Shown: positions 19,351 through 38,584 of the stretch, piece by piece
Numbering within the stretch: position 1 is the stretch's first letter
Layout: each line of letters starts with the position of its first letter
From: Cryobacterium gelidum
Lineage (GTDB): Bacteria > Actinomycetota > Actinomycetes > Actinomycetales > Microbacteriaceae
Length of the DNA stretch: 64,000 bases
Assembly: GCF_004403985.1 (NCBI RefSeq)
Contig: NZ_SOHL01000030.1
Coordinates: 296-64,295 of the forward strand
Direction: 5' to 3'
Translations under genes and position numbers: made by a program
Notes under the pieces: generated by a model
What the model was told of the DNA's origin: nothing
Databases searched by the model: none
What the model saw: the letters and a program-made list of their open reading frames with translations, nothing else

Positions 19351-19740
19351 ATGCTTCATCAGCGCATCAAACCAGGCGAACGCGGCGCGGCAGCGGTGGA
19401 GTTCGCACTCATCCTCCCCGTGCTTCTCGTCCTGGTCATGGGTCTCATCGAGTTCAGCCTGCTCTTCAACAACCAAATCTCCCTGACCAACGCGGCCCGC
19501 GAGGGTGCCAGGTTCATGGCCATCAAAAACAATTCGGCGAACGCGAAGTCCGCCGTTATCGCGGCGGCACCGTCGGTCAACCCGCGGATCTCCGCCGGCG
19601 ATATCAGCGTCAGCCCGTCGAACTGTACGTCCGGCTCGACCGTGACCGTGACCATCGTCTACAACGCACGGCTCCTCACCGGATTTTTTGGCACCGTCCT
19701 GCCACTGACCGGCAAGGGGGTAATGCTGTGCGGTGGTTGA
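19351..19740 (+). CDS. tadE: TadE-like minor pilin
   Basis: A pseudopilin of the Tad pilus, 129 residues. ERGAAAVEFALILPVLLVLVMGLIEF near the N-terminus (about 10-36) is the TadE-type processing site and membrane helix with the conserved AAxxEFA pattern; the rest is a small external domain with a pair of cysteines. It overlaps the start of the next gene by 13 bases. Confidence 0.93.
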   Translation: MLHQRIKPGERGAAAVEFALILPVLLVLVMGLIEFSLLFNNQISLTNAAREGARFMAIKNNSANAKSAVIAAAPSVNPRISAGDISVSPSNCTSGSTVTVTIVYNARLLTGFFGTVLPLTGKGVMLCGG

Positions 19741-20702: not shown

Positions 20703-20710
20703 GAGAAGCC

Positions 20711-21457
20711 ATGAAAACCCGACTCATTGGAGCAATCCTTGCGATCGTGCTTGCCGTCGTCGGCACCGTCGTGCTCACCGGATATGTGCAGGGCGCAGAT
20801 GCCCGTGCCACCAACGGCGCCGAGATGGTATCCGTCTATGTCGTGACCGAAGAGATCCCCGCCGGTACCGCCGCGGAGAAGATTGGCGAGCTCATCGCCG
20901 AGAAGAAGATGCCCGCGGTTGCCGCAGTGCCCGGTCGCGTAACAAAGCTGAGCGCCCTGGCCGGCCGGGTGGCGGATACCACCCTCCAGCCCGGCGAGCA
21001 GCTCCTCACCTCACGCTGGGTGAACTCGGCCGAGCTCGCCGCCCGCGGCGACGTCAAAGTGCCTGATGGCATGCAGGCCGTGACCATCGCGCTTCCCGTC
21101 GAACATGTCGTCGGCGGCACCATCAAGGCGGGAGACACCGTCGGCGTCGTGATCACCGCGTCGATCAAGCCCGCTGGCGGCAGCGAGGAGCGGCCGGTGA
21201 GCAAGCAGGTCTTCCATAAGGTGCTCGTGACCGCTGTACAGGAAGGAACCATGACGTCGCCCGCGAAGGGTCAGGACGGAGCCGATGCGGCGTCCGAGCC
21301 GGTCAGCTCGGTCATGGTCACCCTCGCCCGCACCACGCCAGACATCGAGAAACTCGTCTGGGGCCAGGAGTTCGGCTCCGTGTGGCTCACCCTGGATAAC
21401 GCGAAGGCCGAGGAGACCGGCTCACGCATCGTCGACGGCAACGCGGTGTTCGAATGA
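20711..21457 (+). CDS. cpaB: Flp pilus assembly protein CpaB (SAF domain)
   Basis: A 248-residue protein with an N-terminal membrane helix (about 5-25) followed by a SAF domain, visible as VYVVTEEIPAGTAAEKIGEL through LQPGEQLLTSRWV, and a C-terminal RcpC-type domain with VPDGMQAVTIALPVEHVVGG. In Tad systems it forms part of the envelope channel. The ATG follows AGGAGAAGCC directly. Its TGA overlaps the ATG of the next gene (ATGA). Confidence 0.93.
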   Translation: MKTRLIGAILAIVLAVVGTVVLTGYVQGADARATNGAEMVSVYVVTEEIPAGTAAEKIGELIAEKKMPAVAAVPGRVTKLSALAGRVADTTLQPGEQLLTSRWVNSAELAARGDVKVPDGMQAVTIALPVEHVVGGTIKAGDTVGVVITASIKPAGGSEERPVSKQVFHKVLVTAVQEGTMTSPAKGQDGADAASEPVSSVMVTLARTTPDIEKLVWGQEFGSVWLTLDNAKAEETGSRIVDGNAVFE

Positions 21458-22745
21458 GTCGCTTACTACTCATCGGCAACAGCCATGGATTCGAGACCCG
21501 TCTCAACATTCTGCTCGGAGCCGCTCTCAGCCTGGTCAAGGGGCAGTTTCTGGCCTTCGGACCCTCGGCCGTGCTCGACCGACTGCACGCGGCAGACCGA
21601 CCGGACGTGGCCCTGCTCGGATCGGCTCTCTCCCTCGCGCAAACGAACGTACTCTCGACCGGACTCGCCATCCTCTACCCCGGCGTGGGCATCGTGATCG
21701 TGCGCGGAAACCGGGCGGGAACCGACCAGTGGGTCTCCGATCTGACCATCCACACGGTCCTAAGCCCGAGCGACGAGCAGGCGGTGGCTCCCACACCCAC
21801 CGGTGCCCGGTACTCCTGCGGTGTACCGTGCAGCGTGCGTAATCCGCACCGGCCAGACGCGGAGAAAACACCGCAACTTGCGCTCGAATCGGACTTTTTT
21901 CCGGCTTCAGCCAAGGAGCCCGACGTCGCCACGCTCATTCCGCCGGCCATCGAGACGGTCGCCGCGGCCGCCGGCATCCGCTGCCAGGTCATCGCCGTCG
22001 TGTCGGCCAAGGGTGGCGTCGGCAAGACGACGGTCGCCACCAACCTCGCCGTGGGACTGGCCAAGCAGGCGCCAATGTCGGTGGTGCTCGTCGATGCCGA
22101 CGTGCAGTTCGGCGACGTCGCCACTGCCCTGTCTCTGTCGCCCGTGCATACCCTTCCCGACGCGGTCACGGAAGCAGCGCAACTCGACACGATGGTGCTC
22201 AAGACCTACCTCACCCCGCACGAGCGCGGCTTCTATACCGTGTGCGGTGCGAACACCCCGGTCGAAGGGGACCGGGTGACCGGCGACCAGCTCAGCCATC
22301 TGATCAAGCAACTCAGAGAAGTGTTCCGATTCGTCGTGATCGACACGGCGCCCGGGCTCGGCGACCACGCCCTGGCCGCGCTCGAGCTGGCTACCGACGC
22401 CGTGATCGTCTGCGACATGTCGGTACCGAGTGCGCGAGGACTGCGCAAGGAGCTGGCCGCACTGGTGAGTATCGGCATAATGCCTTCCGCCCGCCACGTC
22501 GTGCTGAATCTGGGCGACCACACCAGTGGCATTTCCGTGCGCGATATTGAGGCGACGATCGGAGCGCCGGTAGATATCGCCATTCGGCGATCCAAGTTGG
22601 TGGCATTGTCGACGAACCGTGGCGTGCCGATCCTGGCTGACGGTGCCAGAAACCCCGCATCAACCGCGCTCACCGCTCTGGTGCGCCGATTCGACCCATC
22701 GGCTTCGCTCAAACGCGGCCGCCTACACCGAAGGGTGGTTGTGGC

Positions 22746-22749
<4 letters not shown>
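21454..22749 (+). CDS. cpaE: CpaE/TadZ-like ParA-family ATPase
   Basis: A 431-residue P-loop ATPase that places the Tad machine in the cell. The N-terminal about 150 residues look like the degenerate receiver domain of TadZ, followed by a linker. The ATPase half begins VIAVVSAKGGVGKTTVATNL with the deviant Walker A KGGVGKTT near residue 187, then VVLVDADVQFGDVATAL and VVIDTAPGLGDH. Both stop and start overlap neighbours by ATGA, so translation is coupled through the operon. Confidence 0.93.
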
Positions 22750-24253
<1,504 letters not shown>

Positions 24254-24257
<4 letters not shown>

Positions 24258-25210
24258 GCGAGATTATTCTCTACTCCGGGATCGGGGCCGGTTTAATCGC
24301 CCTGCTGGTTCTCGTGTTCGTGGTAATCGCGCCGCCGGCCCCCCGCGTGTCTTTGGAACGCCGTCGCGCCCCCGGCGTGATCGAGACGTCCACCCTGACC
24401 AAGATGACCGACCGCACGGTCGAAGCGATCGATGGCGCGCTCCGCCGGGGCGGCCGGGCGCCGTTCAGCGCGGCGGAACTGGAGCAGGCGGGCATTCGGA
24501 TGCAGCCCTCGGGATTCGTGCTCATGGTCATCTCTGCCGCCATCGTTCTGTCGCTGTTCGGACTCATTCTCGGCACCGGCTCACCCTGGGTCGTGCCACT
24601 CATGGTCACGTTCGCCGCGTTCGCCCCGATCGGTGCCAAGGTACTGATCAACCTTCGCGCCGGGCGCAGGCGAGCCAAATTCGCCGAACAGCTCGACGAA
24701 TCACTCACCCTTCTCGCCGGTTCACTGCGCGCTGGCCACAGCCTGCTCCGTGCCGTCGACGCTGCCTCGCACGATACGGAGTCACCGACGGCCGATGAGC
24801 TCGCCCGGGTCGTGAACGAAACCCGAATCGGGCGCGATCTGGGCGACGCACTCGACAACACCGCGACGCGGATGCGCAGCGACGATTTTCAATGGGTCGC
24901 CCAGGCGATCGCAATCAACCGTGAAGTCGGCGGCAACCTGTCCCAGGTGCTCGACCAGGTGAGCCACACCATCCGTGAACGCAACGAAATTCGGCGGCAG
25001 GTGAAAGCGTTGGCCGCGGAGGGCAAGATGAGCGCCTGGGTGCTGATCTTGCTACCCATCGGCGTCTTCACCTTTCTGTTGTTGACCCAGCCGGGCTATT
25101 TCGGCGGCTTCTTCAGCAGCATCTGGGGAATCGCCGCCCTCGTCGTCGCCGCCATCCTGCTCGGGATCGGCTCGCTGTGGATGATGGTCGTCGTCAAAGT
25201 GAAGTTCTAG
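24254..25210 (+). CDS. tadB: Tad inner membrane platform protein TadB
   Basis: A 318-residue protein of the T2SSF family. It has an N-terminal helix (about 5-26), a helix pair near 90-135, a cytoplasmic domain with LDESLTLLAGSLRAGHSLL, and a C-terminal pair of helices (about 258-310). It forms the membrane platform with TadC above the CpaF motor. Starts at ATGA with cpaF. Confidence 0.94.
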
Positions 25211-25219
25211 GAGAATCCC

Positions 25220-26080
25220 ATGCCCCCTTTCATAACCATCCTCGCCGCCCTCGCCGTTGCCGGCGGGCTCGGAGCTCTCGTCGGCATCCTGGTCGGCGGT
25301 CGCGAGCCGCGCGAGGTCACCGCAGGCACCGGCGCACCCGCGGGTTCGGTCTTCACTGGCGGTTCGTTCATCACGGGCGTGCGCGACGCCGCCCCCAAGG
25401 GTTATCTCGGCATGCTCGATCATCGACTCGCACTCGCCGGGCGGCCACCAGCGTGGACCATCGACAAGATCCTCATTGCGAAGCTGATCCTGGCCGCTTG
25501 CGGTGCGCTCCTCGCGGTGTTGTGGATCAGCGGCGACCCGGTCCTGCTACGGTTCGGGCTCGGCGGCGCGCTCACGGTGCTGTGCTTCTTCGTGCCCGAC
25601 CTGCTCATTCAAAGTCGGGGGCAAGAGCGGCAGGAGAAGATTCAGCTCGCCCTCGCCGACACCCTCGACCAGATGACGATTGCTGTGGAGGCGGGCCTCG
25701 GCTTCGAGGCGGCCATGGTCAAGGCAGCGACGAACGGCAAGGGGCCGCTCGCTGAGGAATTCGTTCGCACCCTGCAGGACATGAGCATTGGCCGCGCACG
25801 CAAGGACGCCTACCAATCACTGAGCGCGCGCACCTCGTCACCGGACCTGCGCCGGTTCACGCGCTCCGTCATCCAGGCCGATACCTATGGCATCGCAATC
25901 GCCGACGTGCTCCGGGTGCAAGCGGCGGAAATGCGACTGCGTCGCCGCCAGCGGGCCGAGGAGAAGGCGATGAAGATCCCGGTCAAGGTGCTGTTCCCGC
26001 TTATCTTCTGCATCCTGCCGGTGTTGTTCATCGTGCTGCTCACACCCGCCGTGCTCAGTATGGTCAAAGCCTTCTCGTAG
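25220..26080 (+). CDS. tadC: Tad inner membrane platform protein TadC
   Basis: A 286-residue T2SSF-family protein, partner of TadB. The cytoplasmic domain has LADTLDQMTIAVEAGLGFEA and DMSIGRARKDAYQSL, and the last helix is VLFPLIFCILPVLFIVLL. AGGAGAATCCC precedes the ATG. This is the last gene of the Tad operon; the type IV pilus operon meets it head-on 52 bases further. No Tad-type peptidase (TadV) follows. Confidence 0.94.
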   Translation: MPPFITILAALAVAGGLGALVGILVGGREPREVTAGTGAPAGSVFTGGSFITGVRDAAPKGYLGMLDHRLALAGRPPAWTIDKILIAKLILAACGALLAVLWISGDPVLLRFGLGGALTVLCFFVPDLLIQSRGQERQEKIQLALADTLDQMTIAVEAGLGFEAAMVKAATNGKGPLAEEFVRTLQDMSIGRARKDAYQSLSARTSSPDLRRFTRSVIQADTYGIAIADVLRVQAAEMRLRRRQRAEEKAMKIPVKVLFPLIFCILPVLFIVLLTPAVLSMVKAFS

Positions 26081-26132: not shown

Positions 26133-26825
26133 CTACGCGGCGCCGTTCAGAAGCACGTAGATCAGAGCGGTGATGGTGCCGGTGACCATGCCGGGCGCGT
26201 CCGCAGTGGCTGTGGTACCGAACGCACTGACCGTCACGAGCCGCTCGCCCTGCTGCAGACCACTAATGAAGTCGAGCACATTCTGGTAGCCGCCCTCGAC
26301 CGAGAGGGAGATGGGAATGGCGATGAGGTTGTCGGCGGGAGTCACAACCGGGGCAACCGGTACGGCAGCGTCGGCAGCCGCAGTAGCACCAGCGGCGGCA
26401 TCCTCGGCAGGCACAGCCGCAGCGGCAGCACCCTCGGCAGGCGGCGCAGCCTCTGGCGCAGCTGTCGTCGCCAGCGCTGCTGCGTAGGACTGTGCGTCGC
26501 TGACCGTGATCGTCGTGAGCTTCACAGTGTTCTGGAGGGCAATCGAGTCGAGCTGGCCCACGAATTGGGGAATGTTCGCGCCCTGCGGAACGGACTCCCG
26601 AAGGTCGGCCAGGTCAACCTGGAGACCATCGATGCTCTCGAATTGTTGCTTGAGCGTGGCGAGCTGGAGCTCGTAGCTGGTGTTCTGCGCCTCCACGGCT
26701 ACCCGCTCGGCCGCGGCATCACGCGATTCGCCGAGCTTCGGAGAGATACCGAGCGACCACCCCATGAGGGCGACAACGGACATCAGCAGCACGGCGCCGA
26801 GAACCCATAATCTATTCACGTTCAC
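26133..26825 (-). CDS. pilO: PilO-like type IV pilus assembly protein
   Basis: A 230-residue inner membrane protein with one N-terminal helix (about 5-24), a coiled-coil stretch (SRDAAAERVAVEAQNTSYEL) and a ferredoxin-like external domain interrupted by a long Ala/Pro/Glu-rich insert (about 130-175). This layout is that of PilO, which pairs with PilN to form the alignment complex. The GTG at 26825 comes just behind the pilN stop; GGAAGG lies about 9 bases ahead. It is the last gene of the minus-strand pilus operon. Confidence 0.8.
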   Translation of the reverse strand: MNVNRLWVLGAVLLMSVVALMGWSLGISPKLGESRDAAAERVAVEAQNTSYELQLATLKQQFESIDGLQVDLADLRESVPQGANIPQFVGQLDSIALQNTVKLTTITVSDAQSYAAALATTAAPEAAPPAEGAAAAAVPAEDAAAGATAAADAAVPVAPVVTPADNLIAIPISLSVEGGYQNVLDFISGLQQGERLVTVSAFGTTATADAPGMVTGTITALIYVLLNGAA

Positions 26826-26827
26826 GA

Positions 26828-27496
26828 CTATTTTCCTTCCGCGGCGACGGCGAAGCGGTTTGAACGCGCGCCTTCGTCGATGTGCACGGTGAGAGTCACC
26901 AGGTATGCCCCGGTCTCGTTCTGGGTTATCGAACCGGGCGTGCTGTCCGCGTAGCCGGGCAGTGTCTTGATCGCGTTCAGCCACTCGGGTACCGTGGGCA
27001 GGCTCGGGCTGGTCAGACCGATCACCAGGGTCGCGATTCGCGCCTCTTGCAGGGGCGCCTCGGGCTGACCGTACGCCACGAGCGGCGATTCCGAGTCGAC
27101 CGCGAGCGAATCGATGGTCACGTCCGCTGGGATGACTGCGCGAACGCCCGCGAAGTAGCCTTGCCAGTCCACCTCGGTCGACGCACCGATCTGTCGAGCA
27201 GCGCCGACCGCATCCACTTCATCTTGCACCGTGCGAACCTCGACGAACTTTGTCTGTTCCAGAAGAAGTTCGGCCGTTCGCGCCTGGGTCACGGCAAGTT
27301 GTTCTCGGCTCACGCTGGCCTGCCAGCTGGCCGCGGCCACGCCGGCCCCGACCACTATGACCACGGCAACGACGGATGCGCCCAGGATCTTGCGCAGGGT
27401 CTTGGCCTTCTGCCGGGCCTTGACGACCGGCGGCAGGAGGTCGACTCGCGGTTCCCCGCCGATGACCAGGTCATCGACGCCGCTGTGCCGGCTCAT
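26828..27496 (-). CDS. pilN: PilN-like type IV pilus assembly protein
   Basis: A 222-residue protein with the cytoplasmic N-terminal motif PRVDLLPP, which is the PilM-binding peptide of PilN, then one membrane helix (about 40-58) and an external domain with coiled coil and ferredoxin-like fold. Start and stop fit between pilM (ATGA overlap) and pilO. Confidence 0.87.
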   Translation of the reverse strand: MSRHSGVDDLVIGGEPRVDLLPPVVKARQKAKTLRKILGASVVAVVIVVGAGVAAASWQASVSREQLAVTQARTAELLLEQTKFVEVRTVQDEVDAVGAARQIGASTEVDWQGYFAGVRAVIPADVTIDSLAVDSESPLVAYGQPEAPLQEARIATLVIGLTSPSLPTVPEWLNAIKTLPGYADSTPGSITQNETGAYLVTLTVHIDEGARSNRFAVAAEGK

Positions 27497-28542
27497 GCCT
27501 TGCTTCCCAGGGCCAGGCCCAGTGCAACGAGATAGGTGCCCATGGTGCTCTTGAGGGCACTCGCGTCGACTCCCCGGCCGAGGGAGAGGGTTCCCACTGC
27601 ATCCGGGACGAAGACCGGAATCCGTGTCATCTCGCCAAGCGCTTCGCCAAAGCCGTGCAATTGTGCGCCACCGCCGGTGAGTACGATGCGCGTGACGCTC
27701 ACCTGGTTGCGCGTATTGATGAAGTAGTTGACGGTGTTTCGCAGGCTATTGAGCAGCTCAACGGTGACCTCGTGAATAATAATCGCCGCCGCCGGATTCT
27801 CTGACACGTTCCCCGTGGCGGCAAGGCCCAGCGATCTCTTCAGCGTCTCTGCCTCTGCCAGGTCAATGACGAGCCGGTCGGCGAGGGCCTGGGTGAGATC
27901 GCCGCCGCCGGTCGGAATGAAGCGCACGAACTGCGGCACACCTGCAACGCAGATAACGACGCTGGTGGTGCCCGCGCCGACGTCAATCTGCACTACGGCA
28001 CCATCCGTTGTTTCTCCCCGGCGGGTGACTCGACTAAGAGCGAACGGAATGAGGTCGACATCAATGGGGGTCAGCCCCGCCAGTTCTACGGCCCGAACGT
28101 TGCCGAGCACGGCTTCTTTGACAGCGGCAATCAGGAGACCGTTGACCTGTGGCCCGGTGTCACCCGCGCTCTCAGAGAGCGGGTAGAAGTCGAGGAGCGC
28201 GTCGGCAACCGGAAGGGGAAGCAGGTCTTGCACCTGATAAGGCAATGCTTCACGGATGAGTTTCATCGAGGTCTTGGGAACGGTCAGCTCACGGGCGAGC
28301 ACACGGTGGTTGCCCATGCCGAGTACCACCCGCTTGGTTTTGAAACCGCCGGCAGACCACAGCTGTTTGAGCGCGGCCGCGACGGTATTGGGTTCAAGCA
28401 CCTCGCCGCGATTCACCGCACCCACCGGCAGTTCTACCTGGTGATAGCGCACGATCGTGGGTTTGTCCTGGCGCGAACTGCTCAACTCGACCGCGCGCAC
28501 GGAACCCTTGCCGATATCGATCCCGACGACACTTGCAGTCAT
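27493..28542 (-). CDS. pilM: PilM-like type IV pilus assembly ATPase-fold protein
   Basis: A 349-residue cytoplasmic protein of the actin/FtsA fold. It shows the phosphate-1 loop VVGIDIGKGSVRAVEL, a 1C region with PYQVQDLLPLP, the phosphate-2 loop VQIDVGAGTTSVVI and the adenosine motif VLTGGGAQL. It links PilN/PilO to the cytoplasmic motor parts. AAGGA precedes the ATG. Confidence 0.93.
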   Translation of the reverse strand: MTASVVGIDIGKGSVRAVELSSSRQDKPTIVRYHQVELPVGAVNRGEVLEPNTVAAALKQLWSAGGFKTKRVVLGMGNHRVLARELTVPKTSMKLIREALPYQVQDLLPLPVADALLDFYPLSESAGDTGPQVNGLLIAAVKEAVLGNVRAVELAGLTPIDVDLIPFALSRVTRRGETTDGAVVQIDVGAGTTSVVICVAGVPQFVRFIPTGGGDLTQALADRLVIDLAEAETLKRSLGLAATGNVSENPAAAIIIHEVTVELLNSLRNTVNYFINTRNQVSVTRIVLTGGGAQLHGFGEALGEMTRIPVFVPDAVGTLSLGRGVDASALKSTMGTYLVALGLALGSKA

Positions 28543-28567: not shown

Positions 28568-29425
28568 TCATGTCAGTCCGTACAGCGCGAGATAGCCCGC
28601 GGCAATCTGCTCGCCGCCGAAGATTCCGAGCCACGCCCCCGCGAGCATCCATGGGCCGAAGGGGATGCTGCTCTTGCGGTTTGCTCGCCGCGTGATGACT
28701 AGTACCAGACTAAACACCCCACCGAGCAGGAACGCGGAGAACGCGCCGACGACCAACGGCCCCCAGCCCAGAAAACCCAGGAAGAGGCCGAGCACTCCGG
28801 CCAGCTTCACATCGCCAAGACCCATTCCGCCGGGGTACAGGAGCGCCAGAGTGAGATAGAGGGCGAACAGGGCGGCGCCGCCGATTACCGCGGGGACTAA
28901 CCGGCCGGGCTCGCCGAGGAGCAGCGCGGCCGTCACCAACAGAGCCGCGCTCACCGGGTAGGCCGGCACGACGATCTTGTTGGGGAGCGTGTAGGTGTCG
29001 AGGTCGATCATGGCCAGTGCAACGCTCACCGCGGCCAGATAGAGGAACACCACCAGGGTGACGGCAATCCCAATGATCGCACCGGTCGAACTAATCGAGA
29101 CCACGCCCAACATGCCGGTCGAGCCAAAGCCGCTGCTGGTGACCACCCACCAGGCGACAGCCCCGAAGAACACCGCGGTTCCGAGCTCCACGAGCGGATA
29201 CCGGATCGAGATTCGCTCCCCGCAGTCGCGGCATTTGGCGCGCAACGCCAGCCAGGAGATCACCGGCACGTTGTCCCACGGGCGGATGCGTGCACCGCAG
29301 CTGGCGCACGCGCTGGGCGGCGACACGATGGATCGCCTGGCCGGCACCCGGTAGATCACGACGTTCAAAAACGACCCGATCAGCAAACCGATTGTGGCAG
29401 CGAGGATGACCGCAAAGCTAGCCAA
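28568..29425 (-). CDS. pilD: Prepilin peptidase (A24 family) with methylase domain
   Basis: A bifunctional membrane aspartic peptidase that cleaves type IV prepilin leaders and N-methylates the new end. The 285-residue product has a cytoplasmic loop with two CxxC pairs (Cys40/43 and 65/68), and the two catalytic aspartates in AMIDLDTYTLPN (Asp141) and GGMGLGDVKL (Asp205), within about eight membrane helices. The start is TTG at 29425, overlapping the end of the pilX-like gene by 8 bases. It is the only prepilin peptidase in the window, so it may process both the type IV and the Flp pilins. Confidence 0.95.
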   Translation of the reverse strand: MASFAVILAATIGLLIGSFLNVVIYRVPARRSIVSPPSACASCGARIRPWDNVPVISWLALRAKCRDCGERISIRYPLVELGTAVFFGAVAWWVVTSSGFGSTGMLGVVSISSTGAIIGIAVTLVVFLYLAAVSVALAMIDLDTYTLPNKIVVPAYPVSAALLVTAALLLGEPGRLVPAVIGGAALFALYLTLALLYPGGMGLGDVKLAGVLGLFLGFLGWGPLVVGAFSAFLLGGVFSLVLVITRRANRKSSIPFGPWMLAGAWLGIFGGEQIAAGYLALYGLT

Positions 29426-30839
29426 CCGGCACCATCTCCCGCCGACTCAAGAATTCACCGAGGGCCGCCCCCGAGATCCTGGGGACCGTTATTCCTTCGG
29501 TGAGGTCGACTCCGGCAATACCCACGGGAACGAATACGAGCTGCGCTTGCTGGCCGAACTCGACTTCTCCGGCGTAGATCTGCCCGCGAAACCCGTTCCG
29601 GTCGCTGTAGACCTTGCAGGGCGTATAGATCATGGCAGAAATATTACTGCCGAAATCCGCCTCGTTCGAGAGCGTGATACCGCCAGTGAGCAGGGGCGGA
29701 GGAACGCATGTCGGCGCGCGATTGGGCAGGTCATCGGGCACGATGAACGAGACTTGGCGGGCGGCCGCCGCCGAGAAATAGAGCCTGTCGAACTTGAATT
29801 CTTTGGCGACGAAGACAATATCAGCGCTCAGCGCCACGTTGTCCATGTTGTTGCTCGTGGTCACCGCAGTAAGCGGGCATTTGGAAAGAAAGTTAATGAC
29901 GGTCTTCGAGGTGTAGTTCTTGATGTTTGCCCACTCAGTTGACGCCTTCGAGATGGCACACGATCCCGTCCAGTCAACAACGTTGTAACCTCGAGCGGTC
30001 CAGGTCAGCGGGTTGAAACCAACGTCAACCCAACCCGGCACGATGGGAGCGGGAACGGTCGGTCCCGATTGAATGCTGCCGGTGACGACGGAGTCAGTAA
30101 CCGTCGCGATCCCGGATGCCTTGACGTCTCCGCCGATCTTGCTCTTGTTCACCACTGCATCCTTGGACACATGCACCGAGCCGGCAACGTCGCACATATC
30201 GAGTTTTGCACTACCGTCGCCGAGCACGAGATCGCCACCGATGCTCGCGTTATTGGTGCATTCCACGTCACCCGTTTTGATCATGACGGATGTGGCCACG
30301 CTATTGTCGCCCGACGACAGCACGAATTTCTTCAGGACCCCGTCGACTTTGTAGGCATAAACCGCGACACCCGCCATCGGCACCTGCACCACGATCTGGT
30401 CGTACGAATAAAGAACCTCGACGGTCGATTTGTCACCCGAGGTAGCCCCGGCGACGCCCGAATTAACCGCCGACCCGGTGGAGGTGATGCGCACCGACGT
30501 GGATGCGATGTCGGGGCAGCCATTCTTGTTATTGGGCTTGATCAGGATTTTGGATATCGGAACGCCGGCGACAGGAGCGAACACCAAAATACCGTTGTCT
30601 CCCGCCGTGCAACCCCCCGCGGTTCGCAATGCCGTGAGAGCAACGTCGATGCCAGCTTCGGCCGCGGCCAGTGATTGCACCGACGCGCGGGTTGAGCTCG
30701 TGACGCTGAGCGCGTTGATCGACGCGGCGGTGAGAGTCATGCCCACGATCGCGGTCACGGCCATGACGCCGAGAACGGCCATGAGGGCGCTGCCCCGCTC
30801 ATCGCGATAAATGACGCATAGTCGTTTTATGGGAAGCAT
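29418..30839 (-). CDS. PilX-like pilus protein with a bactofilin-like repeat region
   Basis: A 473-residue protein. The N-terminus, RDERGSALMAVLGVMAVT and then ASVQSLAAAEAGIDVAL, is the usual start of PilX-type pilus proteins with a processed or retained membrane helix. Residues about 195-275 are a run of short beta repeats (NASIGGDLVLGDGSAK, then CDVAGSVHVSKDAVV, then SKIGGDVKASGIAT) that look like the right-handed beta-helix of bactofilins. The C-terminal part is unassigned. It overlaps the pilW-like gene by 13 bases. Probably a surface or tip component of the pilus. Confidence 0.7.
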   Translation of the reverse strand: MLPIKRLCVIYRDERGSALMAVLGVMAVTAIVGMTLTAASINALSVTSSTRASVQSLAAAEAGIDVALTALRTAGGCTAGDNGILVFAPVAGVPISKILIKPNNKNGCPDIASTSVRITSTGSAVNSGVAGATSGDKSTVEVLYSYDQIVVQVPMAGVAVYAYKVDGVLKKFVLSSGDNSVATSVMIKTGDVECTNNASIGGDLVLGDGSAKLDMCDVAGSVHVSKDAVVNKSKIGGDVKASGIATVTDSVVTGSIQSGPTVPAPIVPGWVDVGFNPLTWTARGYNVVDWTGSCAISKASTEWANIKNYTSKTVINFLSKCPLTAVTTSNNMDNVALSADIVFVAKEFKFDRLYFSAAAARQVSFIVPDDLPNRAPTCVPPPLLTGGITLSNEADFGSNISAMIYTPCKVYSDRNGFRGQIYAGEVEFGQQAQLVFVPVGIAGVDLTEGITVPRISGAALGEFLSRREMVPVG

Positions 30840-31429
30840 GTGGGCAGCCCTCCTATCGATGTGGTCGGCTGCCTGCTGACCGACGACGTACTGATGAGCA
30901 CCGGCCGCCCTGCGCCGGTGCTCATGTCGAGCGCAAGGTCGACGCGCCGACCGGCCACGGTGAACACTGGAGCGGGGACCGCGGCAACAATAAGCGGTTG
31001 CGCGCCCTCAGCCAGGATCATCCACGATTTCACCGACGTCGAGGTCTGGATCATTGAGATCGCCCCGGTGGAGTACTTGGTGCGAACTTCCCCGTTGTCG
31101 TAGGACCATGCCTGGCAACGCCAGTTCGGAGTTTCCGCCGAACCGACCGTGCGCACCATAAGAATCTGTGGGACGACCCCGGGAGCGCTTTGCCAGATAC
31201 CGCTGGCATTACGCACACCGAGGCTAACGGATGACGCCACCAGCTGACCGGCGCTACTGGCCTGGCTGGCCTCTCGCACGGAGCGCTCAACTCTGAGCGA
31301 GTTGATGAGGATCCCGCCGACAATCAGGAGAACAACAACGGAGAGTACCGAGTAGATGAGGAGCTCGACGAGCGTGAAGCCAGCTTCGGTGGATCGGCGT
31401 TCTGCGAGCGTGCTGATAAGTTTCTTCAT
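30827..31429 (-). CDS. PilW-like minor prepilin
   Basis: A 200-residue type IV prepilin. The leader ends in STEAG, cleavage is expected before FTLVELLIYSVLSVV, and Glu at mature position 5 is present. The remaining domain has one cysteine pair (WRCQAWS and the C-terminal PTCFP). Its ATG overlaps the stop of the preceding pilV-like gene (ATGA). Minor pilins in a row between pilA and the peptidase usually prime pilus assembly. Confidence 0.85.
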   Translation of the reverse strand: MKKLISTLAERRSTEAGFTLVELLIYSVLSVVVLLIVGGILINSLRVERSVREASQASSAGQLVASSVSLGVRNASGIWQSAPGVVPQILMVRTVGSAETPNWRCQAWSYDNGEVRTKYSTGAISMIQTSTSVKSWMILAEGAQPLIVAAVPAPVFTVAGRRVDLALDMSTGAGRPVLISTSSVSRQPTTSIGGLPTCFP

Positions 31430-31857
31430 GGCGCCCGCAGGTAGACGAGGGTCGCCGCGGTCACCGGCGGCTGCGCGGAGCCGACCATGGACACTGTGAC
31501 CTTCACGCTAACCGTTTTCGGGTAGTCCGTGAGCAGCACAGAACAAGCCCCCACGGTTCGTGTCGGCCGATAGCGCACTCCGCGGGAATCGGTAACAGCG
31601 GGAGGCGTGACGCTGCCATAAACGCTCAATGCAACACAGGTATCGCCGGCCGATCGGGCCTGTTCGAGTTGTTGTCCGACGAGCTGTGTCGCGGTGGCGA
31701 TCGTCGAATTACGAACGGTCGTCTGCATGGAAGCGATGAGGAGCGGTAGGAAGGCCACGGCGAGTAAACCCAGAAGAAACATCGAAATAACGATTTCAAT
31801 TAGACCGAAGCCAGATTCTGATACTCTGACGCGGCGAACCGGCTTACGTATCCTCAT
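31426..31857 (-). CDS. PilV-like minor prepilin
   Basis: A 143-residue type IV prepilin with leader RVRVSESG, cleavage before FGLIEIVISMFLLGLL and Glu5 of the mature protein present. A cysteine pair occurs in the external part (DTCVALS and GACSVLL). AGGTG precedes the ATG. It follows pilA after about 100 bases. Confidence 0.85.
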   Translation of the reverse strand: MRIRKPVRRVRVSESGFGLIEIVISMFLLGLLAVAFLPLLIASMQTTVRNSTIATATQLVGQQLEQARSAGDTCVALSVYGSVTPPAVTDSRGVRYRPTRTVGACSVLLTDYPKTVSVKVTVSMVGSAQPPVTAATLVYLRAP

Positions 31858-31957: not shown

Positions 31958-32371
31958 TTACGGAGTCGCAACGTTGCCAGTGCATTTGCCCTTGATGACG
32001 CCACTCTTGTCATCCGCAGCCCACGAATCCGTCGTTGCAGTGAGGTCGCTGTGCTTTCCAAGGATGCAGAAAGCTGCCACAGTTCCGCTGATAGTGAGAG
32101 TCACTTTCGAATCGCCAGATGCGACCGCAGTCGGGAACGCATCCCCTTTCACTATCCCAGAGACAACATTCACTTTCGCAGTCGCGATAGCCGACTCGAC
32201 AGCGCTTCCCTTTGCGGATGCTTGCTGGCCGAGGAAGATCGGAACAGCAATCGCAGCGAGGATGCCGATAATGATGACGACGACGAGGAGCTCGATCAGG
32301 GTGAAGCCCTTTTCTTTCTTGCCGAGTTCTGAACGCTTGCGGGCAAGCGCAGCCGTGATGGAGCTGGTCAT
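31958..32371 (-). CDS. pilA: Type IV prepilin, probable major pilin
   Basis: The likely main subunit of the type IV pilus: 137 residues, leader MTSSITAALARKRSELGKKE plus KG, cleavage between Gly22 and Phe23, then FTLIELLVVVIIIGILAAI, with Glu27 as the conserved Glu5. The globular part is small, with a cysteine pair (FCILGK and GKCTGN) forming the usual disulfide loop near the C-terminus. The ATG at 32371 follows GAGGA closely; the frame is open to 32434 without a better start. The gap ahead of it holds an inverted repeat and probably its own promoter. Confidence 0.92.
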   Translation of the reverse strand: MTSSITAALARKRSELGKKEKGFTLIELLVVVIIIGILAAIAVPIFLGQQASAKGSAVESAIATAKVNVVSGIVKGDAFPTAVASGDSKVTLTISGTVAAFCILGKHSDLTATTDSWAADDKSGVIKGKCTGNVATP

Positions 32372-32445
32372 GTGAAGTCCTCTTCGCTGTGTGGTGGCCG
32401 ATAAAGGGCTCCTTATCGCCCCCACGATGAGCATATGGTGACTGA

Positions 32446-32508: not shown

Positions 32509-33738
32509 CTACTTGATGTACTCGAAAATGCTAAACATCGGCATGTAAAGAGCCACGATCATGCCACCGACCACGACACCGATGAAGGCGATCATGAGCG
32601 GTTCGATCAGTGCGGTGAGCTGCTCGGCCGTGGCCTGCACCTCCTGATCGTAGAAGTCCGCGATCTTACCGAGCATCTGTTGCAGGGCACCGGCATCTTC
32701 CCCGACCGCGATCATCTGCGTCACCATTGCCGGAAAGACCGGCTCAAGGCTGAGCGGACCGGCAATCGACTTGCCCTCGCGCACCGACTCCTGCACCTTG
32801 CGCAGCGCCGACTCCACCACCCAGTTGCCTGAGGTCTCCCCCACGATCGCGAGCGACTGCAAAATGGGCACACCCGCGCCGATCATGGTGGAGAAGTTGC
32901 GGCTGAAGCGCGCAATAGCGAGCTTGGTCAAAAGCGGGCCAAACACGGGGAGCTTGAGCTTGAGCGGGTCAACGACCCTGCGCACCCGCTCGGTGTTCTT
33001 GTTCTTACGCCACCAGATCGTGAATGCGATTCCGCCTACGATGAGCACCGGCAGCAGCCACACCATGGCCTTCGACAGCACCACCAGCACCTGGGTGGGC
33101 AGCGGCAGCTCGCCGCCGAAACCGGCGAACATCTTCTCGAACACCGGCACGATGAAGGTGAGCATGCCGATCACGGCCAGCACGGCCATGATCAGCACGA
33201 TGGTGGGGTAGGCCATGGCCGACTTGATGGTGTCGCGCAGCTTTCCCTCCGCTTCGAAGTTAGCGGCCACCGAGTTGAGCGAGCTCTCCAGGAATCCGCC
33301 GGTCTCGCCGGCCCTGACCAGGTTGATCATGATCGGCGGAAAGACGATGGAATGTTTCTCCAGCGCCTCCGACAGCGAAATGCCGGTCTCCACATCGTTG
33401 CGGATCGTCGTGAGAATCTTCGCCAGGTCTTTGTTCTCGGTCTGCGCGGCGAGAATGTTCAGGGTGCGCAGCAACGACAAGCCGGCCGAGGTCATCGTCG
33501 CCATCTGCCGGCTCATAATTGCGAGGTCTTTGAGTCCGATCCCCTTGCCCAGGCCGGGGATCTTGATCTCCATGCTCAGCCCGGTGCCCACCGCCACCTC
33601 AGTCACCGAGATCGGCGACAGCCCCATGGTGCGCACGCGCGTCGTGGCCACGCTCTGCGACGGGGCATCTACTCGCCCCTTCACAACCTTGCCCGCGGCG
33701 TTGCGTCCCTTATAGGCGTAGGCCAGGCTGATCGTCAT
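32509..33738 (-). CDS. pilC: Type IV pilus platform protein PilC
   Basis: A 409-residue inner membrane platform protein of the T2SSF family. Its two homologous halves each hold a cytoplasmic helical domain (MSRQMATMTSAGLSLLRTL and FSRNFSTMIGAGVPILQSL) followed by membrane helices, with VGEDAGALQQMLGKIADFY near the end. All of this is typical of GspF/PilC. It overlaps the pilT stop by ATGA. Confidence 0.96.
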   Translation of the reverse strand: MTISLAYAYKGRNAAGKVVKGRVDAPSQSVATTRVRTMGLSPISVTEVAVGTGLSMEIKIPGLGKGIGLKDLAIMSRQMATMTSAGLSLLRTLNILAAQTENKDLAKILTTIRNDVETGISLSEALEKHSIVFPPIMINLVRAGETGGFLESSLNSVAANFEAEGKLRDTIKSAMAYPTIVLIMAVLAVIGMLTFIVPVFEKMFAGFGGELPLPTQVLVVLSKAMVWLLPVLIVGGIAFTIWWRKNKNTERVRRVVDPLKLKLPVFGPLLTKLAIARFSRNFSTMIGAGVPILQSLAIVGETSGNWVVESALRKVQESVREGKSIAGPLSLEPVFPAMVTQMIAVGEDAGALQQMLGKIADFYDQEVQATAEQLTALIEPLMIAFIGVVVGGMIVALYMPMFSIFEYIK

Positions 33739-35072
33739 TGGGTATCCCGCGGGGAGAAGGAGTCACCGAAGTCGATCCCGCCGGTGAGCATCGGATTAGC
33801 CGCAGGGTCGGACACATCGATCCGGCGAATGAGCTGCGCCAGCCCCTCGAGATCCTGCGCCTTCTCCTCCGCCGACTGTCGGGTGATTAGACCGTCATTG
33901 ACGAGCTCGGCCAGGTGCTGGTCCAGGGTCTGCATCCCGAGCGCACGACCGGCCTGCATCGACGACGCGACCTGATACGTCTTACCTTCGCGAATCAGGT
34001 TCGACACGGCGGGGGTCGTCACCAGAATCTCGGTGGCCACGACCCGACCACCACCCACCTTCTTGACCAGGGCCTGACAGACGACGCCCCGCAGGGTCGC
34101 GGCCAGCTGCGTGCGCACCTGCCCCTGCTGATGCGGCGGGTAGACATCGATAATGCGGTCGATGGTCTGAGCCGCCGACTGCGTGTGCAGGGTCGCAAAC
34201 ACGAGGTGGCCGGTCTCGGCCGCGGTCAGCGCCACCGAGATCGTCTCCAGGTCGCGCAGCTCACCGATCAGGATGACGTCGGGGTCTTGACGCAGAACGT
34301 GCTTGAGCGCGGATGCGAAACTGTGCGTATCGTGCCCCACCTCACGCTGGTTGACGATCGACTTCTGATGCTGGTGCAGAAACTCGATCGGGTCTTCCAC
34401 CGTGACGATGTGCTCCGCGCGCGTGCGATTCACCACGTCGATGAGGGCGGCCAGGGTCGTCGACTTGCCCGATCCGGTTGGTCCGGTCACCAGCACGAGG
34501 CCGCGCGACAGTTTCGCGAACTGGGACACCGAATCGGGAACCCCCAGTTCTTTCAATTGCTTGATTCCGCGCGGGATCAGTCGGAAAGCCGCGCCGATGG
34601 AATTGCGCTGATGGTAATAATTCACCCGAAAACGCGCGCCACCCGCCGTGTAGGCGAAATCCAGCTCGAGTTCTTCCTCGAACTGTGCGCGCTGTTTCGG
34701 CGAGAGGATGCTGTAGAGCGCCGAGGTAACCTTATCGCCCATCCAGCGGGTGGAGCCCTCGATGGGTTGAAGGCTCCCATCGACCCGGATGCTCGGGGGC
34801 GCGCCGACCGTGATGTGCAGGTCGGAGGCGTTGAGGTCGAGAACCCCGGATAGCGCGTTCAGCAGGTCGAGGTCGGAGACCTCGTCACCGCCAGATCGTC
34901 GATGTTCCCGGCGACCGCCCGCGCCGTCGGCCGGAGCCGGGTGAGCCTCCGGCTGCGCCACGAGGTCTGGCGCTTCATTGCCACCATGGGGGCGATCGTC
35001 CTCCGCCGGATTCCACCCCGCCGCAGAATCCCCCGCTGGCGAAAATGGTATGTCATAAATTGGCTGGCTCAC
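33735..35072 (-). CDS. pilT: Twitching motility retraction ATPase PilT
   Basis: The ATPase that retracts type IV pili. With the GTG at 35072 the product has 445 residues. The first about 80 residues are an added low-complexity Asp/Pro/Gly-rich segment; then come the PilT N-domain (DLHITVGAPPSIRVDG), Walker A GPTGSGKST near residue 197, the Asp box VTVEDPIEFLH, Walker B DPDVILIGELRD, the His box ATLHTQSA and the PilT-specific AVSNLIREGKTYQ. GGGGAG precedes the GTG. A PilT beside PilB predicts a dynamic, retractable pilus. Confidence 0.95.
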   Translation of the reverse strand: MSQPIYDIPFSPAGDSAAGWNPAEDDRPHGGNEAPDLVAQPEAHPAPADGAGGRREHRRSGGDEVSDLDLLNALSGVLDLNASDLHITVGAPPSIRVDGSLQPIEGSTRWMGDKVTSALYSILSPKQRAQFEEELELDFAYTAGGARFRVNYYHQRNSIGAAFRLIPRGIKQLKELGVPDSVSQFAKLSRGLVLVTGPTGSGKSTTLAALIDVVNRTRAEHIVTVEDPIEFLHQHQKSIVNQREVGHDTHSFASALKHVLRQDPDVILIGELRDLETISVALTAAETGHLVFATLHTQSAAQTIDRIIDVYPPHQQGQVRTQLAATLRGVVCQALVKKVGGGRVVATEILVTTPAVSNLIREGKTYQVASSMQAGRALGMQTLDQHLAELVNDGLITRQSAEEKAQDLEGLAQLIRRIDVSDPAANPMLTGGIDFGDSFSPRDTQ

Positions 35073-35091
35073 GCAAAACTCCCCTTGTGCA

Positions 35092-36765
35092 CTATGCGAC
35101 AACTCGCAAAATTTCCTCGATCGAGGTCAAACCCATCTGGACCTTCATCCAGCCGTCCTCGCGCAGGGTGATCATTCCCTGCTCGCGCGCCGTGCGGCCG
35201 ATTTCAGAACTGGAGGCACGGGCGACAGCCATCCGCTCGATTTCTTCGGTGACCGTCATTACCTCGTGCACCGCGATGCGGCCGCGGTAACCGGTCTTGG
35301 AACAGTGCGCACAGCCTACCGGCAGAAAAGTCTGCGGCAGCGGCTGCCCGGGGTCGAACGTGAAGCGCAACCGGGCGAGCTGTTCGGAGTCGTGTTCGGC
35401 CGGAGCCTTGCAGCGGTCGCAGAGGCGGCGGGCCAGACGTTGGGCAACCACACAGTCCAGCGCCGACCCGACCAGAAACGGCTCGATGTCCATCTCCGTC
35501 AGTCGGGTGATCGCGCTCGGCGCGTCGTTGGTGTGCAGGGTCGAGAGCACGAGGTGACCGGTAAGCGAGGCCTCGATGGCGATCTGCGCGGTCTCGTGGT
35601 CGCGGATTTCACCCAGCAGAACGACATCCGGGTCGCTGCGCAGGATGGAACGCAGGGCGCTCGCGAAGGTGAGCCCCGCCTTCGGATTCACCTGCACCTG
35701 GTTGATGCCGGCCATGCGGTACTCGACCGGGTCTTCGACCGTGATCACGTTGATCTCGGGGCGGGCGACCGCGCCGAGGGTGGTGTACAGGGTGGTCGAC
35801 TTGCCCGAGCCGGTCGGACCCGTGATCAAAATCATGCCGTAGGGCTTGGAATAGGAGGTCTGGTAGGCCTCGAAGTTGTGCTCGAGCAGTGCCAGTGCGC
35901 GCACGTCCAGGGTCGTGTTCGAGTTGTCGAGAATACGCATGACGACTTTTTCGCCCCACACGGTGGGCAGGGTTGCAACGCGCAGGTCGATCTGGCGGCC
36001 CGCGTGACGCACCGTCATGCGGCCGTCCTGCGGTTTGCGCCGCTCGGCGATGTCGATGTCGCTCATGATCTTGAGCCGGGAGATCACGCCGTTCTGGATA
36101 TTCTTGGGTGCGGTCTGCATCTCGTGCAGCACACCGTCGATGCGGTAGCGCACCCGCAGGCTGTGTTCGCCGGGTTCGATGTGAATGTCGGAAGCCAGGT
36201 CCTGAATGGCCTGACTCACGAGCAGGTTCACGAATCGCACGATCGGGGCCGAGTCATCGGTTGACTCGGGGCCGCCCATGGTGACGGCCTCGGGCGCGTT
36301 CTCTTCCTCGAGGGTGGTCGTGAGGTTGCTGAGCTCGTCATCGGCGCGATGATGGCGGGTGATCGCCGCGAGCAGGTCTCCGCGTTCGGCGACGACCGGG
36401 GCCACGCGCATGCGTGCCGCTTCGCCCACGTCATCGAGGGCGAAGACGTTGCCGGGGTCGACCATCGCCAGCACCAGGCGGCCGTCTTCGATGGCGATCG
36501 GCAGGATTTCGTGTCGACGGCAGACTGCGGCGGTCACCTTGGAAATGGCCAGCCGGTCGACAGGATAGTCGATGAGCTCCACGAAGGGCAGCCCGGCTTG
36601 CTCGGCCCGAGCCCTGGCGAATTGCAGCTCGGTGATCACCGCACTGTCTACGAGGGCGCGCACGGCCTTCTCATCGGCGGGGTCACCGACCGCGAGTGAG
36701 TCGAGATGCTCGATCGGGAGCAGGCCGTGCAAAATGAGAATCTCGGTCAGGCTTGGCACAACCAT
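35092..36765 (-). CDS. pilB: Type IV pilus extension ATPase PilB
   Basis: The assembly motor ATPase (GspE family), about 557 residues. An N-terminal MshEN-type domain (LPIEHLDSLAVGDPADEKAV) is followed by the N-domain (DIHIEPGEHSLRVRYRIDG), Walker A GPTGSGKSTT near 317, Asp box ITVEDPVEYRM, Walker B DPDVVLLGEIRD, His box STLHTNDA, and a zinc site with two CxxC pairs (CDRC and CAHC). The ATG at 36765 is listed, but GTG at 36759 fits better to the GGGGG that precedes it; the difference is two codons. It is the first gene of the pilus operon. Confidence 0.95.
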   Translation of the reverse strand: MVVPSLTEILILHGLLPIEHLDSLAVGDPADEKAVRALVDSAVITELQFARARAEQAGLPFVELIDYPVDRLAISKVTAAVCRRHEILPIAIEDGRLVLAMVDPGNVFALDDVGEAARMRVAPVVAERGDLLAAITRHHRADDELSNLTTTLEEENAPEAVTMGGPESTDDSAPIVRFVNLLVSQAIQDLASDIHIEPGEHSLRVRYRIDGVLHEMQTAPKNIQNGVISRLKIMSDIDIAERRKPQDGRMTVRHAGRQIDLRVATLPTVWGEKVVMRILDNSNTTLDVRALALLEHNFEAYQTSYSKPYGMILITGPTGSGKSTTLYTTLGAVARPEINVITVEDPVEYRMAGINQVQVNPKAGLTFASALRSILRSDPDVVLLGEIRDHETAQIAIEASLTGHLVLSTLHTNDAPSAITRLTEMDIEPFLVGSALDCVVAQRLARRLCDRCKAPAEHDSEQLARLRFTFDPGQPLPQTFLPVGCAHCSKTGYRGRIAVHEVMTVTEEIERMAVARASSSEIGRTAREQGMITLREDGWMKVQMGLTSIEEILRVVA

Positions 36766-36891
36766 CCCCCGGGTCAATCTGCTGCGGAAACCTGCCAAAA
36801 CACACACGGCGTGGCCGCTACACCTGTGAGCACTGGGGGCTTATCGATAGATCCTTAGGCTACCTCAACCAGCCAGCCCACACCCCCTTCC

Positions 36892-36951: not shown

Positions 36952-37728
36952 TCACCAGGTCGTGATGGCGAACGCGATGAAGGTTGCCGCCCCGAGCAAC
37001 ACCAGGAGGGTGCTCGTGACGATCGCGGTCAGGGTGAGGCGTCGACGGCGCCGAGATTTGGCCAGGGTACGCTGCCGGATGAGGGCGGCCGCCGCGGCGA
37101 GCGCGATGCGAGCCAGATCGGGCGTGTTGGCTGGTGCTGATGCTGATGCTGATGCTGATACTGATACTGATACTGATACTGATACTGATACTGATACTGA
37201 TACTGATACTGATACTGATGCTGAGGCTGATGCTGAGGCTGAGGCTGATGCTGATGCCGGTGCTTCGGCGATGACCGGGGCCGGCCGCGCCGCATAGCGC
37301 ACACTCGACCCGCTCCGCACCTGTGGCGGCTCGTAGCGGCGTTGCAGTGCGTCGACGACGGGAGTGGGTGCGGCTGACGCCGCCCTCCGACCGCTGAGGA
37401 GCGTGTCGTTGCTCGTGCTGTCCCGGGAAGAACGCACTGTGGAGTCATCGGTTGGATCTGCGTCGTCGCTGGGAGCTTCTGATGCCTCACCTGGGCCGCT
37501 CGCCGCGGACTTTCTTTCCACGACGAGGGTGTGTTCGTCGGTGGTGCGCTGCACGATTCGCGTCTGGTCGTCGTCGGGTTCAGCGGGTTGGTTGGACTCG
37601 CTACTTGGCGCCGGCACCGAAGCGCCATGGCGCGGCGCGCCTCGGCGAACAATGCGGGTTGCCTCGTCGAGGTCGTCGGCCGTCTCGGGCGCTGGCACCG
37701 AGGCCGGGCGTCGCGGGTCACCGGACGG
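36952..37728 (-). CDS. Tail-anchored acidic protein with three D-x-T-x-[IV]-V-x-R motifs and a Ser-Val/Ser-Ala repeat
   Basis: A protein of about 258 residues, mostly low complexity and probably disordered, with one membrane helix at the very C-terminus (LTAIVTSTLLVLLGAATFIA), preceded by a basic RRRRR stretch, so it should be tail-anchored with the N-terminus in the cytoplasm. Three similar motifs occur: DEATRIVRR (Thr25), DDQTRIVQR (Thr57) and DEHTLVVER (Thr68). A run of 20 hexamers encodes alternating Ser-Ala and Ser-Val before the helix. The start at 37728 overlaps the PP2C stop by 11 bases. The frame extends to 37848 with other ATGs, none with a good ribosome binding site, so the start is uncertain. 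It is the last gene of the locus. No family was recognised; a phospho-substrate of the local kinase is inferred. Confidence 0.65.
   Translation of the reverse strand, partial: PSGDPRRPASVPAPETADDLDEATRIVRRGAPRHGASVPAPSSESNQPAEPDDDQTRIVQRTTDEHTLVVERKSAASGPGEASEAPSDDADPTDDSTVRSSRDSTSNDTLLSGRRAASAAPTPVVDALQRRYEPPQVRSGSSVRYAARPAPVIAEAPASASASASASASASVSVSVSVSVSVSVSVSVSVSASASASAPANTPDLARIALAAAAALIRQRTLAKSRRRRRLTLTAIVTSTLLVLLGAATFIAFAITTW
37136..37255. repeat. Tandem hexanucleotide repeat, 20 units, within a gene
   Basis: Four GCTGAT units, ten ACTGAT units (37160-37219) and six GCTGAT/GCTGAG units follow each other without a break. On the minus strand they encode Ser-Ala and Ser-Val dipeptides. The ten identical units are an ideal substrate for slipped-strand changes, each of which would add or remove two residues without a frameshift. 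Confidence 0.97.
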
Positions 37729-38584
37729 CATGGCGGGCCACGCGTTGCACCGGTCGGGTGTCGTCGGTGCGGGTGTCTCCGATATGCGCATGATCGTCGC
37801 CATCGATCGGGACGCCGTGCCACGAGCTGACCCCGCCAGCGATGACATCGATGACGATCACCGACACGTTGTCTCGCCCGCCGTGTTCGAGCGCTCCGGC
37901 GAGCAGCATGTCAGCCGTCTGCTGAACGGTGCCGCCGAGGGTCAGTTTGGCCTTGATGCTCTCGTCGGAGAGTTCGCCGCTGAGTCCGTCGGAGCACACC
38001 AGCAGGCGTTCGCCCGTCACGACCGGGCGCAGCCAGTAGTCCGGGCTGCTGTTGTCGGCGCCCATGGCGCGGGTGATGACGTTCTTGCGCGCGAAGGTGG
38101 CGACATCCGCTTTGAGCAGGGACCCGGCGTCGATGAGTTCCTGGGCCAGGGAATGATCGACCGTGAGCTGCTGCAAGTTTCCGCCGTGCAAACGGTAGAC
38201 CCGCGAGTCGCCCACGTTTACGATGAGCCAGTGCGGGGCATCCTCGTGGTCGATGAGCACGAGACCGGTCAGCGTGCTGCCGGCGCCGCGCCCGGTCGAA
38301 TCCGACACGACGCGCACCGCGCGGTGGGCGCGCTCCACCGCGGCCACCACGTCGCCAGCCAGAACGCCGGTGCCGGCGACGCAGGTCTGAAATTCGGCGA
38401 TCACGGCGGCGCTGGCGCGGTGGCCGGCTTCGAGCCCGCCCATTCCGTCGGCGACGAGGAACACCGGAGACGCCGCCAGCAGGGAGTCTTCGTTCTCGTT
38501 CCGCTTGCGGCCGACGTCGGTGCGCGCGCCGTACCGCAGCGACACTTCAGCGCTGGTTACTCGCTGGTCGGCAAGGTGGGTCAT
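37718..38584 (-). CDS. PP2C-family Ser/Thr protein phosphatase
   Basis: A metal-dependent phosphatase of 288 residues (PstP/Stp type, without a membrane helix). The PP2C motifs are all there: RYGARTDVGRKRNENED, VADGMGGLEAG, GSTLTGLVLI, NVGDSRVYRLHGG, LLVCSDGLSGEL and GGRDNVSVIVIDV, with the aspartates that bind Mn/Mg. It sits directly behind the FHA gene and belongs to the same unit as a Ser/Thr kinase, so it should reverse that kinase's phosphorylation. Residues after about 260 are a variable tail. Confidence 0.95.
   Translation of the reverse strand: MTHLADQRVTSAEVSLRYGARTDVGRKRNENEDSLLAASPVFLVADGMGGLEAGHRASAAVIAEFQTCVAGTGVLAGDVVAAVERAHRAVRVVSDSTGRGAGSTLTGLVLIDHEDAPHWLIVNVGDSRVYRLHGGNLQQLTVDHSLAQELIDAGSLLKADVATFARKNVITRAMGADNSSPDYWLRPVVTGERLLVCSDGLSGELSDESIKAKLTLGGTVQQTADMLLAGALEHGGRDNVSVIVIDVIAGGVSSWHGVPIDGDDHAHIGDTRTDDTRPVQRVARHAVR

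Follow-up and report, generated by a model that had tools for sequence, protein, structure and literature searches.

A predicted beta-solenoid in the K-type minor pilin of a type IVa pilus operon of Cryobacterium gelidum, a probable tip adhesin or receptor

Results and Discussion

Pilus genes of the locus

The window, which is the whole stretch of 64,000 nucleotides of Cryobacterium gelidum DNA that was analysed, contains a complete type IVa pilus (T4aP) operon on the minus strand, and an open reading frame of 473 codons occupies its GspK/PilX ("K") slot. From high to low coordinates, the operon reads:

35092..36807, minus strand: PilB-type extension ATPase with an MshEN domain (T2SSE, E 2.5e-137; MshEN, E 1.3e-21)
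33735..35102, minus strand: PilT-type ATPase (T2SSE, E 1.8e-48)
32509..33738, minus strand: platform protein of the PilC/PilG type (T2SSF, E 1.2e-61)
31958..32434, minus strand: pilin with Glu5, probably the major pilin (N_methyl, E 1.5e-9)
31426..31857, minus strand: minor pilin with Glu5, presumably of the I type (N_methyl PF07963 over its cut-off)
30827..31429, minus strand: minor pilin with Glu5, presumably of the J type (N_methyl PF07963 over its cut-off)
29418..30839, minus strand: K-type minor pilin, 473 amino acids
28568..29425, minus strand: prepilin peptidase PilD (A24_N_bact, E 3.2e-35; Peptidase_A24, E 3e-14)
27493..28542, minus strand: PilM (PilM_2, E 9.7e-42)
26828..27496, minus strand: PilN-like protein, named from position alone
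26133..26984, minus strand: PilO (E 9.6e-9)

The letters I and J are our assumption, assigned by position. The PilN-like frame, for which no Pfam match of weight was found, lies between the genes of PilM and PilO, a place conserved in related loci. The gene that follows the K gene in 59 related loci is that of PilD in 47, of PilM in eight and of another pilin in two, and the contig ends there in the remaining two (counted by hand).

A Tad/Flp pilus cluster (19043-26080, plus strand) runs towards the T4aP operon, the two meeting at their 3' ends. From reading of the sequence, we take its members to include a Flp-like pilin (19043-19234), a TadE-like protein (19351-19740) and a CpaB-like protein (20576); further members are a CpaE-like protein (21454), a TadA-type ATPase (22746) and two T2SSF proteins of the TadB/C type. 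On the other side, an open reading frame at 36952-37848 (minus strand), which adjoins the genes of a PP2C phosphatase and an FHA protein, encodes a long run of Ser-Ala and Ser-Val dipeptides in a hexanucleotide repeat (37130-37257, 21 copies, 94% match), the length of which may vary by slippage.

Homologues of the K protein

Homologues of the K protein were detected in 41 of 100 related genomes (37 of the 57 genomes of the genus and four others, counted by hand). PilM is encoded in 69 of the 100, including 40 of the 41 genomes with a homologue (the exception is G028), and 29 PilM-positive genomes have no detectable K homologue. A profile search with a 12-row alignment (A2) found 59 loci in the named collection, many of them from Cryobacterium and others from Salinibacterium, Microbacterium, Microcella, Cellulomonas, Demequina, Mycetocola, Pseudolysinimonas and records labelled Actinomycetota; a preliminary description of this DNA had proposed to look for the fusion in other Actinobacteria, and homologues occur, for example, in Cellulomonas, Microbacterium and Demequina. 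Two alignments were made. A1 holds 53 of 55 extracted proteins (L001 being the window protein; L056 and L057 were left out because the N-terminus is missing from them as extracted), and A3 holds 53 of 62 proteins plus the window protein, 54 rows in all, with L095, L097, L105, L107 (twice), L109, L114, L116 and L117 left out because they were truncated, carried frameshifts or diverged strongly. The two alignments overlap in many species and are not independent of each other; 88 distinct sequences are found in the pair.

Domain architecture of the K protein

The K protein was modelled with AlphaFold from 54 sequences as input (mean pLDDT 88.3). The following features of the gene, all on the minus strand, are distinguished from the alignments, the model and its structural matches:

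30792..30839, minus strand: class III prepilin leader (residues 1-16), its last residue being the invariant Gly16
30624..30791, minus strand: long N-terminal helix, residues 17-72 (AlphaFold model), with Ala at +5
30378..30611, minus strand: predicted strands of the pilin module, residues 77-154 (AlphaFold model), with Cys77 and Cys108
29490..30377, minus strand: predicted beta-solenoid module, residues 155-450 (VIA-align ranges)
30054..30293, minus strand: regular coils within the solenoid, residues ~183-262, delimited by the spacing of G-[DSN]-[LVI] turns and corresponding to the coils of the preliminary description
29433..29489, minus strand: predicted last strand, residues 451-469 (AlphaFold model)

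Gly16 is invariant in both alignments (53/53 rows of A1 and 54/54 of A3), and the prepilin pattern suggests cleavage after this residue. Glu at +5 is present in none of the 53 rows of A1 or the 54 of A3, whereas it occurs in the other three pilins of the operon. Three features of a K-type subunit are present: the class III prepilin leader followed by a long helix, the lack of Glu5, and a gene beside those of I and J, in the window as in related loci. The minor pilin of the preliminary description is supported. Profile matches of the window protein lie below the cut-offs: the model NF037980, which describes the whole GspK of type II secretion, matches residues 14-73 of the window protein (E 1.3e-4; 21.7 bits against a cut-off of 130 bits) and is matched by 41 of 54 family members, and PilX_N gives 10.5 bits, far below its cut-off of 25.5. 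A single homologue of 53 matches DUF7305 (E 0.01), and searches with PADLOC and PHROGs gave zero matches. A minor-pilin tip complex is described as capped by a subunit without Glu5 in a review (PMC10191384), and the lack of this residue in every aligned homologue makes the tip placement suggested in the preliminary description probable.

Six cysteines (residues 77, 108, 194, 216, 294 and 321) are invariant in A1 and A3, and two more are nearly so: Cys378 is kept in 53/53 rows of A1 and 46/54 of A3, and Cys408 in 52/53 and 53/54. Disulfides may pair them in sequence order.

Repeats and predicted fold

The preliminary description reported bactofilin-like repeats at 29900-30280 (residues 187-313), the repeats being placed at about residues 195-275. 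The turns G-[DSN]-[LVI] do recur, at residues 190, 202, 220, 237 and 254 (spacings of 12, 18, 17 and 17), so that regular turns, mostly 17-18 residues apart, are found over residues 190-258; residues 259-275, by contrast, are a Pro-rich linker. A looser related motif, defined post hoc when the sequence and the preliminary description were already known, occurs nine times in the K protein against a mean of 1.3 in shuffled sequences, a count reached in none of 5000 shuffles, whereas the motif-free autocorrelation of hydrophobicity in the protein is not significant (p 0.29). Stronger evidence than the motif count is the AlphaFold model, in which residues 190-260 form short strands at regular steps with pLDDT of 95-97; the repeat is taken as real because the prediction is a regular beta-helix, the very outcome on which the preliminary description had staked its claim. 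The protein can accordingly be described, as it had been, as a pilin with a predicted beta-helix and of unusual size for its kind.

The extent of the beta-helix has to be revised. Instead of ending near residue 275, the predicted solenoid spans residues ~155-450, as judged from the ranges over which VIA-align superposes ice-binding proteins (154-439), tapirins (155-450) and ComZ (50-472) on the model. Pilins 1oqw and 4bhr align over residues 23-473 and 54-472, respectively, reaching the C-terminal residues of the K protein, as expected if strand 451-469 closes the pilin sheet; we take it to do so, as in the arrangement of ComZ. In the model, then, the solenoid is larger than first described and sits before the last strand of the pilin module.

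Structural matches

In a Foldseek search with the K model, the single PDB chain at E <= 0.001 is ComZ of Thermus thermophilus (E 2.3e-4), which VIA-align (6qvi) superposes across both pilin module and solenoid (Z 16.8, 329 residues). Taken together, the two domains superpose loosely (rmsd 7.6), so that the angle between them differs or is poorly predicted. ComZ is described as a pilin with a solenoid set in before its last strand (PMC6561018), and the K model has its solenoid inserted ahead of the last strand of the pilin sheet in the same way. The two have in common a GspK-like pilin module, a large inserted beta-solenoid and a gene beside those of other pilins; they differ in that comZ belongs to a five-ORF competence locus (PMC6561018) and the K gene to a full T4aP operon, and in the conserved cysteines and variable coil number on the K side. 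No sequence similarity was found, ComZ being absent among the matches at E <= 10 to the profiles of A1 and A3.

The solenoid by itself resembles two further groups. Ice-binding proteins of the DUF3494 family (4nu2 and others) share its arrangement over K residues 154-439 (Z ~15; 4nu2, rmsd 2.7 over 187 residues), but they are free-standing, and the K protein has neither a PF11999 match (at E <= 10; none is listed for homologues either) nor profile similarity to them, comparison of the K family with three Ice_binding sequences of its own genome by hhalign giving E 0.22. The tapirins of Caldicellulosiruptor (4wa0, 6n2b and 6n2c), the genes of which adjoin type IV pilus loci, superpose at Z ~12 (12.4), but these entries comprise the C-terminal domain only. 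The window protein does not match the tapirin model NF051896 at E <= 10, and two of 54 homologues do at E <= 0.1 (best E 0.032). A separate model of the homologue L088, which has more coils (mean pLDDT 81.1), gives ComZ at a Foldseek E of 1.8e-6 and Z 15.3, and tapirins at Z 17.6 (range 16-18).

The protein is thus probably the K subunit of an actinobacterial T4aP, a tip cap that carries an exposed ComZ/tapirin-like solenoid and would most likely act as an adhesin or receptor. PilD would cut the leader after Gly16, the helix of residues 17-72 would enter the filament core, and the subunit, because it is without Glu5, would be inserted first and cap the tip on top of the minor pilins I and J. 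The solenoid of ~300 residues, set in the pilin sheet and presumably locked by the conserved cysteines, would then project from the tip and form the contact surface with the environment. Counting against this reading are the lack of ComZ among the profile matches, the PilX_N and GspK scores of the window protein far below the cut-offs, the loose superposition with ComZ, and the 29 of 69 PilM-positive genomes with no detectable homologue.

Relation to bactofilins

The preliminary description saw in the repeats a bactofilin-like beta-helix within the pilin, serving as a stalk or assembly module. At the level of the family there is a likeness: the bactofilin BacA (2n3d) has coils of similar length and G-D-V turns, it is the top match of the A1 profile among PDB sequences (E 2.1e-5; E 0.0022 with A3), and PF04519 is matched by 27 of 53 homologues at E <= 1 and by 22 of 54 at E <= 0.1, although among ten homologues tested the cut-off was passed by one (L078, 31.2 bits), with L082 falling 0.1 short. 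The window protein taken alone has no PF04519 match at E <= 10 in a Pfam search. By structure, BacA covers residues 157-261 of the K model (89 aligned, Z 5.7, rmsd 2.5; Z 6.4 on the model of L088), against Z 16.8 for ComZ, and the solenoid continues to ~450.

The PF04519 model cross-reacts with other solenoids, because the one place in the genome that it matches below E 0.1 (C25:58153-58320) falls within an Ice_binding domain. This domain (L139, G000:C25:58108-58362) is a short Ice_binding fragment that doubles as the best weak PF04519 match of the genome. The label of a bactofilin fusion was dropped, as weak PF04519 matches arise from ice-binding solenoids too. No bactofilin was found at 1e-5 in any of 59 genomes of the order. 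Bactofilins are cytosolic, and the K protein, with its prepilin-type leader, long hydrophobic helix, conserved cysteines and place in a pilus operon, is contrary to a cytosolic bactofilin without an export signal. Bactofilins are described as proteins that attach to the membrane, form fibres and are connected with the cytoskeleton (PMC4376143). The K protein is most probably not a true cytoskeletal bactofilin, and a fused bactofilin domain with a polymerising or assembly role is very improbable.

Variation and exchange of the module

Between conserved landmarks, one segment of the K protein varies greatly in length: residues 216-268 correspond to 15-182 amino acids in the relatives of A1 and to 16-221 in those of A3, and all other segments are of nearly constant length in both alignments. 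Variation of this kind would be expected if coils were gained and lost, and whole coils seem to have been gained and lost at residues ~183-262 in relatives.

Of the 29 PilM-positive genomes in which no K homologue was detected, 19 were examined and gave 20 loci; in these, the open reading frame directly upstream of pilD encodes another large PilX-type protein. Four of these proteins (L121, L124, L127 and L136) are ricin-type lectins, with Ricin_B_lectin over its Pfam cut-off; in an hhalign comparison with the K family they have residues 12-163, the pilin module, in common and nothing beyond (E 5.6e-8). The same Pfam model has no match in the genome of C. gelidum, and none in any control genome either, so that absence does not follow from this result. 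The other 16 (L118, L119, L120, L122, L123, L125, L126, L128 to L135 and L137) are a third type of K protein, ~580-710 amino acids long and in many cases with a GPxHSND motif, which has residues 9-76 alone in common with the K family (E 2e-9). No Pfam family was over its cut-off in six of these that were tested, L120 being the sole one with a weak DUF4900 match, below the cut-off. Genome G021 has the ricin-lectin type and the third type in two loci.

It is possible, though somewhat short of an even case, that the K gene of these Actinobacteria is an exchange slot, in which one pilin module bears unrelated receptor modules, and that the version with a solenoid adjusts its reach as whole coils come and go; module swapping within one genus would then turn the pilus tip towards new surfaces. 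The variable coil number would fit a stalk, and the constant second half and the alternative modules would better fit a ligand-facing module. Grafting of modules on pilins is an accepted theme, given that more than 1,200 modular pilins in 264 architectures are reported (PMC8179133).

Possible ligands of the solenoid

The K protein is best read as a receptor at the pilus tip, with a module that can be exchanged; ComZ, the tapirins and the lectins of the same slot have in common that they make contact with a ligand outside the cell. As to the nature of this ligand, an adhesin for a surface polymer is weakly favoured over a DNA receptor, mainly because the solenoid has an acidic pI (4.9; the median in the family is 4.8, n = 56) and lectins replace it in relatives. 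Adhesion to polysaccharide or cellulose, in the manner of tapirins, is a tentative candidate: the tapirin fold is recovered with both models, two family members match NF051896 and the replacing lectins suit this role, but the window protein itself has no tapirin match by sequence and a common fold does not prove a common ligand. A role as DNA receptor in natural transformation, like that suggested for ComZ, appears unlikely. The best fold match is a protein reported to bind DNA (PMC6561018), and the genome encodes ComEC; this marker is not discriminating, however, because 97 of 100 genomes encode ComEC, whether or not they have a K protein of this family, and the acidic solenoid and the lectins in its place argue against DNA. 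The charge alone cannot decide the matter, since ComZ itself is described as lacking a distinct positively charged patch (PMC6561018).

That the pilus tip binds ice in this cold-living genus is conceivable by fold and habitat, considering the superposition of DUF3494 proteins, the true Ice_binding domains of the genome and the many homologues in Cryobacterium records. By sequence it is unlikely, and overall we hold it to be extremely improbable: PF11999 and the hhalign comparison give no support, homologues occur also in Cellulomonas, Microbacterium and Demequina, no regular TxT ladder is seen by eye in the first coils, and ComZ, of the same fold, is reported to lack conservation at the ice-binding positions (PMC6561018). 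One locus of the genome (L138, G000:C17:124892-126643) has three tandem Ice_binding (DUF3494) domains in one open frame of 1013 codons.

Relation to other pilins

A fold of this kind had been called not normal for pili in the preliminary description, but pilins with solenoid and bactofilin-like modules are already in print (PMC6561018, PMC4376143), among them SO_0850 (PilBac5) of Shewanella oneidensis, which differs from the K protein in its Gram-negative host (PMC4376143). Literature searches, judged by title and the start of the abstract, found no paper on the actinobacterial family of K proteins with a solenoid. The contents of T4aP tips in Actinobacteria appear little studied, because, according to a 2019 review, every type IV pilus studied in this phylum belongs to the Tad/Flp kind (PMC6916266). 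The K family ties three solved solenoid folds, those of ComZ, tapirins and ice-binding proteins, to a conserved position of the T4aP operon, and a genus in which tip modules differ between close relatives makes module and ligand directly comparable. A parallel in a monoderm pilus is provided by PilB and PilC of Streptococcus sanguinis, large modular pilins with effector domains that are proposed to lie at the tip, although their vWA and lectin-like modules are described as appended to the pilin module (PMC8179133), whereas the solenoid of the K protein is predicted to be inserted within it.
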